From assembly GCF_013106755.1 (NCBI RefSeq), contig NZ_WHPF01000002.1:248001-312000 (forward strand): DNA of 64,000 nt, read 5' to 3'. The notes under the pieces were generated by a model that saw only the letters and a program-made list of their open reading frames with translations, did no database searches and was not told where the DNA came from. The position numbers were made by a program, and so were the translations under genes. The stretch is from Limnovirga soli. Lineage in GTDB: Bacteria > Bacteroidota > Bacteroidia > Chitinophagales > Chitinophagaceae. How positions within the stretch are numbered: position 1 is the stretch's first letter; every line of letters begins with the position of its first letter. Shown one piece after another: positions 13,276 to 19,389 of the stretch.

Positions 13276-14190
13276 ATGAAAAAGCGATTGCCATTAACCA
13301 GTGTATTTATCCTATGTTGTAGTTTTTTACAAATTGCACAGGCGCAAAAAAGCCCGGTACAAGGTATATTCCCTGCTAATACGGTTACCTATAGCAATAT
13401 TGCCTATGCCGGCGATACCTTGCAAAAACATTTACTGGATATTTACCTGCCTGCCAATACCACCAGCAACCTGCCACTTATTGTTTGGATACACGGCGGC
13501 GCCTGGATGATGAACGATAAATATGCCGATATGGGTTATATGACCAATACCGTTAAGGCATTTATCGACAGTGGCTATGCCCTAGCTTCCATCGATTACC
13601 GGTTTAGTACCAGTGCAGTTTTCCCCGCACAAATACAGGATTGCAACCAGGCCATTGATTATTTATACCAACATGCCGCCAACTATCATATTGATAAAAA
13701 CCGCATTGCGCTGATTGGTTTTTCCGCAGGTGGGCACCTGGCTTCGTTACTGGGTTTATCCAACAATAATGCTGTGGCCAATTTTTACGCCAACGGCAAC
13801 AAACCCAAATTTACTATAAAAGCCGTACTAGATTTTTATGGCCCCTCCCATCTGTTAATGATGGCAGCCAATGCAGATACTACTGAGGACAATATTCTTA
13901 GCCCCATAGAAATATTATTGGGCGCCTCTCCTATTAGCCGGCCTGATTTGGCACAACAAGCCAGTCCCGTAAATTATATCGATAAAAAAGATCCGCCCTT
14001 CTTTATTGTGCAGGGCGAAAAGGATTTATCCGTACCCAATACACAATCCAAATTATTAAGTGCATGGCTAGGTTTACAGGCGGTACCCAACCAATTAATA
14101 ATTGTACCCAATGCTCCGCACTATGGTACCATGTTCGATGTGCCGTCCATACGGCAACCCCTATTTGCCTTTTTGCGTCAACACCTCTAA
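13276..14190 (+). CDS. Secreted alpha/beta-hydrolase (carbohydrate/lipid esterase-like)
   Basis: 304 residues: Sec signal peptide (1-23, ending IAQAQ), then an alpha/beta-hydrolase domain. The oxyanion motif is HGGAW (73-77) and the nucleophile is Ser150 in GFSAGG. Likely Asp250 (EKDLSVPN) and His282 (APHYG) complete the triad. This is the BD-FAE/lipase-like esterase pattern; acetyl, feruloyl or small-ester substrates are possible. The last part of the gene and the following repeat arm are duplicated about 1.1 kb downstream as a pseudogene fragment. Confidence 0.88.
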   Translation: MKKRLPLTSVFILCCSFLQIAQAQKSPVQGIFPANTVTYSNIAYAGDTLQKHLLDIYLPANTTSNLPLIVWIHGGAWMMNDKYADMGYMTNTVKAFIDSGYALASIDYRFSTSAVFPAQIQDCNQAIDYLYQHAANYHIDKNRIALIGFSAGGHLASLLGLSNNNAVANFYANGNKPKFTIKAVLDFYGPSHLLMMAANADTTEDNILSPIEILLGASPISRPDLAQQASPVNYIDKKDPPFFIVQGEKDLSVPNTQSKLLSAWLGLQAVPNQLIIVPNAPHYGTMFDVPSIRQPLFAFLRQHL

Positions 14191-15813: not shown

Positions 15814-17445
15814 TTATTTGTTGTTACCAAAGGCTTTGTCTAAGAAAATATAACGGGCATCATTGCCAGCTTTTTCGGCTTTGGAATTAGCACTAATTAC
15901 CATCACATCCGGATTGCTAGCTGTTTTATCTGCCGCCGGCCAATTGGCCAGGTCTTTACCATTAGGATTGCCGGTTTTAATAAAATTGGCAAAATAAGCA
16001 AACATGGTATTAGAAGCTTGATAGTCGTCTTCTGTCCAATTATAATCTTTTATCAGGTGCAAATTGCCCATGCAATATTCAATTTCTGATGCATGCGATG
16101 CGCCTACCGGCTCGGGCATTTTAAAAGTATTTGCATCTTTTTTTACGGTGCCGCCGGCAAGTCCCTGTGTAATACTATTATCCGTTAATGGTGGCCTTAT
16201 TTGAGAGAACATATACCGATATACCGGCTGATTGCTGTTTTTGCGATGCAGATCGAACCACTTCCAGGTGCTATAGGCTATAAACCTGTCGGAAGCCAAA
16301 GCTGTTGCGGATAATTCAATTTCTTTAGGAGAGCTGTGCGGATATAATTGCAGCACTTCTTCGAAGTTATTGGGATAGGCTTCCTTTACTTTTTTTACAT
16401 AATTCTCATCGGTAAAAGGGCCTTGGGTAAAGGATATTCCGGGTATTTCGGCAGAGTTCCAGCCCAATAAAAGTGGCACCATAGATTGTTCACCGGCATT
16501 AAATGTTTCAGGAACTGTTTTAGTATAAAAATAACCATCAATTACCGTAGGGAAACCAAAGCGTTTGGACGCGTCATACATTTCATAAATCTGTAGGGTG
16601 CTCATAGCCCTTAATTGTGCAATGGATGGTGCACCGGCATTTTTAGCAAAATCTGCACCTGTTTTCTCTGCTTCTGCCAGAGGTACAGGAGACAAGGTGG
16701 GATTAATGGAAGCCCCACTTTCGCCAATGGCACCGGCAAACAAACCTTTTGATAAAGGAGAAGCCATTTGCGCGGTAACAGAAATAGAGCCTGCAGATTC
16801 TCCTGCAATGGTAACTTTAGCAGGGTCGCCACCAAAAGCAGCTATATTCTTTTGTACCCATTGTAAAGCCGCATTTTGGTCAAGCAAACCATAATTTCCT
16901 GAGCCTTTATAAGATGACTCGGCGCTTAATTCAGGATGAGCAAAAAAGCCAAAAATATTGAGGCGGTAATTTACGGTAACGGCAACAATACCTTGTTTGG
17001 CCATACTGGCTCCATCATATCTTGGTTCCGAAGCATCACCAGCTACAAATCCTCCACCATAGAAATAAACCAAAACAGGCAGACCCTTGGTATCGTGTTT
17101 GGCAGGCGTCCATACATTTAGGTATAGGCAATCTTCGCTAAGTCCGTCTGACCTTGAATTCATATCACCAAATACAATACCCTGCACGGGACGTGGGCCA
17201 AACTTTTTGGTGGCCAATACACCTTTCCAGTTATCAGGGGGTTGTGGTGCTTTCCAGCGTAAATTACCAATGGGTGGTTTTGCAAAGGGAATACCAAAAT
17301 ACAGTTGCAACCCTTCTTTGGTATCGTAGTTACCTTCTATAATACCATTTTGAATTTTTGTTTGTACAGGAAAATAATAATTGGTTTGCGCAGTGGCTGT
17401 AAAAAACATAGTAGTAAGTACTAAAAATAATTTGATTTTTTTCAT
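15814..17445 (-). CDS. Type B carboxylesterase, secreted
   Basis: 543 residues with a signal peptide (1-20, TTMFFTATAQ). The type B carboxylesterase fold shows GGGF oxyanion hole (130-133), nucleophile Ser217 in GESAGS, SEDCLYLNVW (103-112), and a His in GASHASEIEY near residue 450. It would hydrolyse esters in the periplasm or outside the cell, possibly acetyl or aromatic esters on plant polysaccharides. It is divergent from the Nudix-type regulator; their shared 99-base spacer holds a perfect 31-bp palindrome, which suggests joint regulation. Confidence 0.9.
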   Translation of the reverse strand: MKKIKLFLVLTTMFFTATAQTNYYFPVQTKIQNGIIEGNYDTKEGLQLYFGIPFAKPPIGNLRWKAPQPPDNWKGVLATKKFGPRPVQGIVFGDMNSRSDGLSEDCLYLNVWTPAKHDTKGLPVLVYFYGGGFVAGDASEPRYDGASMAKQGIVAVTVNYRLNIFGFFAHPELSAESSYKGSGNYGLLDQNAALQWVQKNIAAFGGDPAKVTIAGESAGSISVTAQMASPLSKGLFAGAIGESGASINPTLSPVPLAEAEKTGADFAKNAGAPSIAQLRAMSTLQIYEMYDASKRFGFPTVIDGYFYTKTVPETFNAGEQSMVPLLLGWNSAEIPGISFTQGPFTDENYVKKVKEAYPNNFEEVLQLYPHSSPKEIELSATALASDRFIAYSTWKWFDLHRKNSNQPVYRYMFSQIRPPLTDNSITQGLAGGTVKKDANTFKMPEPVGASHASEIEYCMGNLHLIKDYNWTEDDYQASNTMFAYFANFIKTGNPNGKDLANWPAADKTASNPDVMVISANSKAEKAGNDARYIFLDKAFGNNK

Positions 17446-17460
17446 GTGGAAAGAATTGAG

Positions 17461-17491
17461 TTATTATTGTCTCATTGTGAGACAATAATAA
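17461..17491. promoter_or_regulatory. Perfect 31-bp palindrome, candidate operator of the Nudix-type regulator
   Basis: Half-site TTATTATTGTCTCA (17461-17474), spacer TTG, and its exact complement at 17478-17491. It lies 16 bases upstream of the carboxylesterase start and 54 upstream of the Nudix regulator start, in their divergent spacer. Dimeric NrtR/AraR-type regulators bind palindromes next to their own genes. The loop is short and there is no T-run beyond the repeat itself, so a terminator is unlikely. I did not find a second copy in the window. Confidence 0.7.
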
Positions 17492-17544
17492 AAAACATTT
17501 TTGATTCTAACTGATTAAATTTGAGGAACGATTAAAAAATTGGC

Positions 17545-18270
17545 ATGGCGCATAAAAAGAAGAATGAAGCAAATGATATTCAGGGCACTGGTTATTTGAG
17601 CAATATTGCCTTTGATTCTGTGGTATTTGGTTTTTCTGGTGCCAAACTAAAAATATTGTTGATGGAATACCATAATACCGGTTTTTTTGCCTTGCCCGGT
17701 GGTTTTGTAAAAAGAGAGGAAAACCTGAATGATGCAGTACGCAGGGGTTTAAAAGAAAGAACGGGGCTGGATCATATTTATTTGGAACAATGCTATGTTT
17801 TTGGCGATACTACCCGCCATAAACCTGAAATTCTTAAAACAATATTGGAAGCCAACGGACATACCGTTACCGATAGCCATTGGCTGCTTGACCGGTTTAT
17901 TTCGGTTACTTACTACGCCTTAATTAATTATGCCAATGTGGTTCCAACGCCGGATGCATTATCAGATTCCTGTACCTGGTACGACCTGGATAGTTTACCT
18001 GAACTGATATTAGACCACCACGATATTGTAAACAAAGCATTGCAAACCCTACGTGCCAATATTGACCAGAAATTGGTTGGCATGAACTTATTGCCTGCAC
18101 AGTTTACCATGCGGGAATTACAGAATGTATATGAAGCCATTCTTGGTGAACAATTAAGACGCACCAGTTTCCAAAGAAAAATTCTTGGGCTTGATTTGTT
18201 AAAACGGCACGAAAAGCACTATTCAGGCAAGGCACACAAAGCGCCTTATTTGTATAGTTTTAAGAAATAA
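17545..18270 (+). CDS. Nudix-domain transcriptional regulator (NrtR/AraR-like)
   Basis: 241 residues: an N-terminal Nudix fold (about 20-150) and a C-terminal winged helix (about 165-235, including FTMRELQNVYEAILGEQLRRTSFQRK). The Nudix box begins GGFVKREENLNDAVR but continues RGLKERTGL. Two of the conserved catalytic glutamates are replaced by G and R, so it probably senses a ligand and does not hydrolyse. Related Bacteroidota regulators (AraR) control arabinose use, and a GH43 gene lies directly beside it, convergent. The arabinose role is inference. Confidence 0.85.
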   Translation: MAHKKKNEANDIQGTGYLSNIAFDSVVFGFSGAKLKILLMEYHNTGFFALPGGFVKREENLNDAVRRGLKERTGLDHIYLEQCYVFGDTTRHKPEILKTILEANGHTVTDSHWLLDRFISVTYYALINYANVVPTPDALSDSCTWYDLDSLPELILDHHDIVNKALQTLRANIDQKLVGMNLLPAQFTMRELQNVYEAILGEQLRRTSFQRKILGLDLLKRHEKHYSGKAHKAPYLYSFKK

Positions 18271-18294: not shown

Positions 18295-19389
18295 TTATTC
18301 TTTTTTGTAAGCATCGATGGTGATGATACTGCCATCAGGGCGGTAATTTAATTCAGTAACTTTTATATTGCGTAAATGTGTTTTACCCGATAGCTGTACA
18401 TCGTGATAAAACAGGTACCATTTATCGTTAAATTGTACAATAGATTGATGATTTGTCCAACCTTGCACCGGATTTAGCACAACACCCTGATAGGTAAAGG
18501 GCCCATAAGGACTTGTACCGGTTGCATAACAAATAAAATGTGTATCACCGGTGGAGTATGTAAAATAGTATTTGCCATTATATTTATACATCCAGGAGGC
18601 TTCAAAAAACCTCTTGTTATGGTCGCTGGCAGGAATGGGTTTTCCATCAGCACCCAGTATTACTACATTTTTTACCTCTTCGTCAAATTCAAGCATATTA
18701 TTACTTAAACGGGCCACTTTAGCGGTTAAGGCAGGTGTTTCGCCACTTGGTTCATCTTTGGCGGTAGAATCGTATTTGCCGGTTTGCCATCTTTGTAGCT
18801 GACCGCCCCAAATACCACCAAAATACATATAATATTTACCGTCATTATCTTTAAAAACGGAAGGGTCAATACTATAACTACCCTTTATAGGTAAGGGTTC
18901 TGCTTTAAAAGGCCCGGCAGGATTGGTACTTGTTGCTACGCCAATTCTAAAAATATCCGATTTGTCCTTCACCGGAAAATACAGGTAATATTTGCCATTA
19001 TTAAATGCTGCATCCGGCGCCCAAAGCTGTCTGCCGGCCCATGGAATATCTTTTATATCCAGGGCAACACCATTGTCGGTAATCTTACCATTAATACTAT
19101 TCATGGAAAGAATATGATAATCCCTCATAGCAAAATGATCGCCCTTATCATTTTCCGGAATACCTGCATCAATATCGTGAGAAGGATAAATATAAATTTT
19201 TCCATCAAACACATGGGCAGATGGATCTGCAGTATAAATGCTGCTGATTAATGGTTGAGAGATGGGTACTGGTATTTTGGGAAGTGTATCATCAATTGTT
19301 ACAGCTTTTTCGCTGCCATTATTACAAGCAGCAAATACAAGACAAAGTATAAACAGAACAAAAGATGATTTTGGCTTAAAGCAATTCAT
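18295..19389 (-). CDS. GH43 family glycoside hydrolase, lipoprotein
   Basis: 364 residues with a lipoprotein signal (FAAC, Cys22). Five-bladed propeller features: catalytic Asp55 in TADPSAHVF, Asp175 in SIDPSVF, Glu263 in FFEASW, and repeated NGKYYLYF-type blade motifs. GH43 enzymes release arabinose or xylose from arabinan, arabinoxylan or xylan. Membrane anchoring suggests action on imported or surface-bound oligosaccharides. It is convergent with the Nudix regulator (24-base gap) and stands upstream of no SusC/D genes. Specificity cannot be fixed by eye. Confidence 0.9.
   Translation of the reverse strand: MNCFKPKSSFVLFILCLVFAACNNGSEKAVTIDDTLPKIPVPISQPLISSIYTADPSAHVFDGKIYIYPSHDIDAGIPENDKGDHFAMRDYHILSMNSINGKITDNGVALDIKDIPWAGRQLWAPDAAFNNGKYYLYFPVKDKSDIFRIGVATSTNPAGPFKAEPLPIKGSYSIDPSVFKDNDGKYYMYFGGIWGGQLQRWQTGKYDSTAKDEPSGETPALTAKVARLSNNMLEFDEEVKNVVILGADGKPIPASDHNKRFFEASWMYKYNGKYYFTYSTGDTHFICYATGTSPYGPFTYQGVVLNPVQGWTNHQSIVQFNDKWYLFYHDVQLSGKTHLRNIKVTELNYRPDGSIITIDAYKKE

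Follow-up and report, generated by a model that had tools for sequence, protein, structure and literature searches.

A Perfect Palindrome Beside an NrtR/AraR-Like Regulator of Limnovirga soli: A Probable Operator Conserved With a Divergent Carboxylesterase Gene

Introduction

A perfect palindrome separates two divergent genes of Limnovirga soli, one coding for a carboxylesterase and the other for a regulator of the NrtR/AraR type, and the question raised by this locus is which protein recognizes it, and in response to which signal. The window analysed here is a stretch of 64,000 nucleotides (contig NZ_WHPF01000002.1, positions 248,001 to 312,000), and all coordinates refer to it. A preliminary description of the locus had proposed that the palindrome is a target of the adjacent regulator, and that the carboxylesterase belongs to a regulon connecting ester removal with arabinose-glycan breakdown. 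In our reading, the palindrome very probably serves the adjacent NrtR/AraR-like regulator as its operator. The fuller proposal, in which this regulator represses the esterase gene and is released by a small ligand, is given a probability of about 0.87. The features on which the argument depends are the following:

15814..17445, minus strand: carboxylesterase P0002, proposed repressed target (PF00135, E 8.7e-108)
17461..17491, no strand: 31-bp perfect palindrome, proposed operator (inverted-repeat search and matrix score)
17467..17485, no strand: conserved 19-bp core TTGTCTCA-TTG-TGAGACAA (22 of 24 orthologous loci; once in the own genome)
17483..17490, minus strand: TATTATTG, inside the palindrome and one mismatch from TAnnTTTG, candidate -7 box of the esterase gene
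17516..17523, plus strand: TAAATTTG, fitting TAnnTTTG, candidate promoter of the regulator gene
17545..18270, plus strand: NrtR/AraR-like regulator P0001 (PF21906, E 1.7e-18; PF19368, E 7.4e-6; BtAraR, 5bs6, E 4.4e-32)

The Palindrome in the Intergenic Spacer

The two divergent open reading frames leave a spacer of 99 bp (17446-17544), in which TTATTATTGTCTCA-TTG-TGAGACAATAATAA forms a perfect inverted repeat with arms of 14 bases and a spacer of 3 bases, just as the preliminary description had stated. Among perfect repeats with 14-base arms and spacers of up to 6 bases, the window holds just one more (at 2414, spacer of 5), and arms of 14 were not found in any of 10 mononucleotide shuffles of the window. 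This second repeat (2414-2446) has a T-rich end and is located at the end of the frame 2080-2418, facing the end of 2468-2998; it is probably a terminator. When scored with a matrix built without the window site, the palindrome reaches 39.0, against 5.3 for the runner-up in the window and a maximum of 15.4 over 20 shuffles.

The exact core TTGTCTCANNNTGAGACAA occurs a single time in the 5.48-Mb genome. The genome scan suggested in the preliminary description used a mistyped pattern with a 1-base spacer, which gives no match at up to two mismatches; with NNN as the spacer, the exact core was found once. Allowing up to three mismatches, the core pattern with the NNN spacer was found in 13 places of the own genome versus 16 for the reversed control, and therefore there is no excess of weak sites in this genome. 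Only the window site and a site before the paralogue L018 stand out among these places.

The Regulator and the Conservation of Its Probable Site

P0001 carries PF00293 (residues 25-154) and PF21906 (NrtR_WHD, residues 179-239), both above the cut-off, so that the winged helix is C-terminal to the Nudix-like domain. Its Nudix catalytic box is impaired (RGLKERTGL versus the signature REUXEEXGU, with two glutamates gone). By this architecture and the impaired box, the protein is assigned to the NrtR family, and its sequence and operator mark it as a putative new subfamily of this known family. No earlier description of the subfamily or of its operator was found in the literature searched, where matches to the half-site letters were covered in part. 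The own genome contains six regulators of the NrtR/AraR-like family, four of which (L014-L017) carry Asp at the position of BtAraR residue 178.

For comparison, 24 loci were fetched by the regulator protein alone and the window was added, giving 25 neighbourhoods and proteins. The loci presumably span Chitinophagaceae, Cytophagales, Flavobacteriaceae, and other groups. In 20 of the 24, the motif TTGTCTCA...ACAA is found 64-171 bp upstream of the regulator match, and in L038 and L039 the site is present with one or two changes in TTGTCTCA, which brings the total to 22 of 24. In this respect the site behaves as the operator near the regulator's own gene that the preliminary description had anticipated. 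The consensus of these 22 sites and the window site is TTATTGTCTCA-WTT-TGNNACAATAATA, in which the TTGTCTCA half, on the side of the esterase, hardly varies, whereas two bases are free in the other half. The exceptions are two Dyadobacter loci (L040 and L041, 50-53% identity), where the site, some 1.8 kb distant from the regulator, precedes a SusC/SusD pair; nothing in these two stretches exceeds a matrix score of 14.

The esterase is conserved as well. P0002 has a signal-peptide-like N-terminus (judged by eye) and a GESAG motif at residue 215. Carboxylesterases of one BLAST cluster are present in 22 of the 25 neighbourhoods, that is, 21 of the 24 fetched (absent from L033, L040, and L041), and relatives of P0002 with 62-77% identity in 17 of the 24. 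In the 17 fetched loci with a divergent esterase, the distance between the core and the esterase ATG is 2-23 bp (21 bp in the window), with start codons set by a simple open reading frame rule. The divergent neighbour is not the esterase in seven loci (L031, L032, L033, L035, L037, L040, and L041): the esterase gene of L032, L035, and L037 is codirectional with the regulator gene and downstream of it, in L031 the two are separated by a sulfatase, and in L033 a GH2 gene is opposite the regulator with no cluster esterase in view. The inclusion of the carboxylesterase in the regulon, as claimed before, thus finds support in its presence in 21 of 24 loci, mostly divergent and with the core just before its start codon. 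As judged from these comparisons, regulator, site, and esterase are conserved together, and the site covaries with the recognition helix.

In two flavobacterial loci (L042:6001-6693 and L043:6001-6693), the regulator copies are interrupted by in-frame stops, but the operator is still present, as is the divergent esterase frame; another regulator copy is found elsewhere in both genomes (L079 and L198).

This conservation also bears on two other explanations of the palindrome. It might act as an RNA hairpin, in the form of a terminator or a leader structure, and not as a protein site; the 14-bp perfect stem in the window would suit such a role, and in two other genomes the same core is found just past the ends of open reading frames. 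The spacer is divergent, however, no terminator-like site was found in 17300-17700, and among 19 distinct sites none of the 11 pairs has changed on both sides, while pairing is lost in 8 of the 19 at columns 8-18 and in 13 at columns 9-17. Because compensatory change is absent, the hairpin is rejected, and we consider it hardly credible. The palindrome could also belong to another, unlinked regulator and be located here by coincidence. A second factor acting at the same promoter region would be compatible with the sequence alone, but the loci were picked by the regulator alone and the site appears in 22 of 24; moreover, base -5 of the site varies in step with the recognition helix encoded next to it. 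Such a coincidence is as improbable as the hairpin, and binding by the adjacent regulator is the reading followed below.

The Recognition Helix and Base -5 of the Probable Operator

In extracts of the study of BtAraR, the L-arabinose-responsive NrtR-family repressor of Bacteroides, contacts are made by Lys179 to G(-7) and, in one monomer, by Asp178 to the cytosine of the -5 pair (Table 2, PMC4666351). The half-site is G(-7)T(-6)G(-5)T(-4) (PMC4666351), the register having been worked out in the present analysis, and in this register the window operator reads GTCT. The recognition helix of P0001 is L204-R205-R206-T207-S208-F209, where Arg205 aligns to Asp178, and Arg206, Thr207, and Ser208 align to Lys179, Arg180, and Asn181. 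The second-best palindrome of the genome, TTGTATCA-AAA-TGATACAA, lies about 105 bp upstream of the paralogue L018, which has Val at position 178. From the alignments, base -5 appears to follow the residue at position 178: G with Asp, C with Arg, and A with Val or Gln.

Symmetric GTxT...AxAC sites upstream were collected from a first sample of 108 regulators, which combined 45 genomes of the own family (36 with a hit) and the orthologues. Asp-class sites had G in seven cases, A in one, and T in one; Arg-class sites had C in four (one duplicate dropped); and Val, Gln, and Asn were associated with A once each. Without L014, the origin of the idea, G was found in six of eight symmetric Asp sites, the rule having been written down beforehand. 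For most Asp-class regulators of this family sample, an upstream GTxT...AxAC site was not found. The second sample comprised 70 genomes of the class, with 27 having a hit and 41 new loci, and the prediction was recorded first; 12 of 13 distinct symmetric Asp-class sites had G, and one had T. No Arg-class member with a site was found in this class sample, and the support for C with Arg therefore comes from the query's relatives and from loci that had been located through the site.

In a permutation test, 25 of 27 listed cases match the residue/base rule (p ~1e-5); the list was typed by hand from both samples and includes the examples that formed the rule, and Asn = A entered the rule only after the first sample. 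Omitted from it were the duplicates L164 (contig shared with L022), L279, and L283; the second G site of L257; the T site of L257 at -4, which is contrary to the rule; L267, whose helix is unaligned; and the asymmetric sites L121, L140, and L028 of the first sample and L246 and L265 of the second. L250 and L249 share one genus and are non-independent. Other residues give mixed patterns: the Glu regulator L198 has T in one half-site and A in the other and falls outside the rule, the His members (L026, L028, L038, and L039) combine a C in the left half with either A or C in the right, and the Leu members (L040 and L041) show A and C mixed. Across the family as a whole, upstream regions show just a mild enrichment of a loose operator pattern, with 21 sites against a shuffle mean of 10.6 (maximum 17) and reversed controls of 11 and 13.

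The Arabinose Question

It is very unlikely that the palindrome is an AraR operator that responds to arabinose and connects the esterase with the breakdown of arabinose glycans, as the preliminary description had suggested. BtAraR is the closest solved relative of the regulator (E 4.4e-32), P0001 keeps the equivalents of its Arg86 and His131, and a GH43 gene is next door. This GH43 neighbour (18295-19389, convergent) is nevertheless a singleton among the 25 neighbourhoods, and the position of BtAraR Arg34 is occupied by Tyr in 23 of the 25 aligned proteins (Tyr42 in P0001) and by His in the other two. Arg34 is required for the arabinose response of BtAraR, and the R34N mutant was still on DNA with 0.5 mM arabinose, according to extracts of the same study (PMC4666351).

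The own arabinose operon codes for an FGGY kinase, a class II aldolase, GH127, AraA, and a symporter, with two alpha-L-arabinofuranosidase genes opposite. No exact TTGTCTCA was found in the 18 kb around it, and the core is absent from the rest of the genome, so that the expectation of sites before arabinose genes was not borne out. Instead, the operon carries GTGTTATTTTGACAC, of the GTGT, Asp-class type, 10 bp upstream of its first gene (the kinase). This site is no proof of another regulator, as the GTGTTANNNNTACAC pattern with one mismatch gives 62 and 60 matches genome-wide versus 64 and 45 for the controls; it could be a chance match, though its position favours a real site. Altogether, P0001 lacks several AraR-subfamily traits (Arg34, the AraR DNA-contact residues, and an operator before arabinose genes), and the proposed link to arabinose-glycan breakdown is unsupported in view of the replaced Arg34, the arabinose operon devoid of TTGTCTCA, and the unconserved GH43 gene. 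In our reading, the ligand of P0001 is not arabinose.

Other Members of the Putative Regulon

Scanning 24 of the 25 genomes (without that of L021) for TTGTCTCANNNTGNNACAA with up to one mismatch gave 102 strand matches versus 27 for the reversed control, each palindrome counting twice. Fifty-four stretches around places other than the self sites were scored with the matrix of 23 self sites at a threshold of 14, and 20 of them hold a site above it; the other 34 contain nothing above 14, and some of the places are intragenic (L075, L086, and L087). According to BLAST against cluster members, with Pfam on examples, the sites above 14 face family regulators in seven cases (L076, L198, L191, L192, L195, L079, and L085), carboxylesterases in six (L074, L076, L078, L198, L182, and L179; L076 and L198 face a regulator too), GH78 rhamnosidases in four (L081, L082, L083, and L088), BD-FAE esterases in two (L080, followed by a GH78-domain protein, and L194), and single other genes in L077, L084, and L089. 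The sets L081-L083, L191/L192/L195, and L080/L194 come from related Runella genomes and are non-independent. Because GH78 genes are among these site-bearing targets, a rhamnose-related signal is at most a guess for the inducer.

In the own genome, none of the 13 pattern places is near any of seven GH78 hits; as the weak places are at control level, the regulon therefore looks local in this genome. The BD-FAE esterase gene at 13276-14190 (56% identity to the site-bearing Runella genes) was considered as a target and rejected, since the window scan found no site there (best other score 5.3). At the scale of the phylum, the exact core was found in 3 of 395 genomes, and inspection by eye of 1-1.5 kb flanks in the two others (G180 and G216; L044-L046 covered, L047 left out) found no regulator. 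In L044, L045, and L046, the exact cores are located just past the ends of open reading frames (twice, 21 bp apart, in one genome), and that of L046 also lies about 100 bp before the next gene.

Two paralogous loci of the own genome are also worth describing. In L092 (contig C34), the Asp-class paralogue L016 is beside a GH3 gene, a carboxylesterase relative, and a TIM-barrel relative, a gene set that resembles the one around relatives of the window regulator, without its operator. In L090 (contig C15), L018 and its TTGTATCA palindrome are among GH2, GH95, and a relative of PF00756-type esterases; this locus is perhaps a sister regulon.

Promoters and Proposed Mechanism

The -7 box of Bacteroidota promoters has the consensus TAnnTTTG. 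An exact match is found within 75 bp on the regulator side of 8 of the 23 sites, against 1.6 expected by shuffles, and TATTATTG is at the same place in 19 of the 23. On the esterase strand, TATTATTG is overlapped by the core, which on the regulator strand precedes TAAATTTG by 30 bp; such a layout is compatible with a repressor. Matches to sigma70-type promoters (4 versus 2.0 in shuffles) were set aside.

By analogy with BtAraR, we infer a dimer, repression, and release by ligand. The ligand-free dimer would sit on the palindrome with one winged helix per half-site, and its binding to the core would shut off the esterase gene, because the core, 21 bp before the start codon, overlaps the likely esterase promoter. 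Binding would probably tune the regulator too, since the core is just upstream of its own candidate -7 box. A small molecule would then enter the degenerate Nudix pocket and free the DNA, as L-arabinose does with BtAraR; this molecule is likely to be a sugar, or a compound resembling one, that arises from the ester or glycoside in whose degradation the esterase takes part. A broader model, to which we give somewhat less than even odds, is that the NrtR-like sugar regulators of Bacteroidota fall into operator classes set by a single residue, number 178 at the beginning of the recognition helix, the Arg class being a dedicated esterase-and-rhamnosidase repressor that would sense a non-arabinose sugar or an ester-cleavage product, perhaps a rhamnose derivative.

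These proposals are of biological significance in several respects. An uncharacterised regulator subfamily would gain a defined operator and a conserved target, and a one-residue rule would make the operators of many NrtR-type sugar regulators predictable and testable in the laboratory. The arabinose case illustrates that a guess from the gene neighbourhood is testable from sequence. Finally, the inducer of the regulator would point to the natural substrate of the carboxylesterase.

Comparison With Known Systems

The best counterpart of this system is BtAraR (BT0354), which shares with P0001 the Nudix-like and winged-helix architecture, the impaired Nudix box, and the equivalents of Arg86 and His131, and whose half-site register G(-7)T(-6)x(-5)T(-4) is also that of the window site. 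On the other hand, Arg34 is replaced by Tyr42 and the three-residue stretch that follows it is absent from P0001. The recognition helix is LRRTSF instead of MDKRNF, and therefore P0001 has no counterpart of the intercalating Arg180 of BtAraR; the DNA contacts Lys179, Arg180, Asn181, and Lys184 correspond to Arg206, Thr207, Ser208, and Arg211. Operator and target differ as well, with GTCT...AGAC and a carboxylesterase here versus GTGT...ACAC and araMPRDAB for BtAraR. Another example is the ADP-ribose-responsive NrtR of Shewanella oneidensis (3gz5/3gz6), which has the same architecture and is farther from P0001 (E 2.3e-15), with a different recognition helix; no NAD-metabolism family was found among the eight window proteins scanned. 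Finally, BtXylR (BT0791) is described in extracts of PMC3878776 as a predicted xylose regulator of the NrtR family in Bacteroides, and it is comparable to P0001 by family and predicted sugar role alone, and not by sequence or motif.
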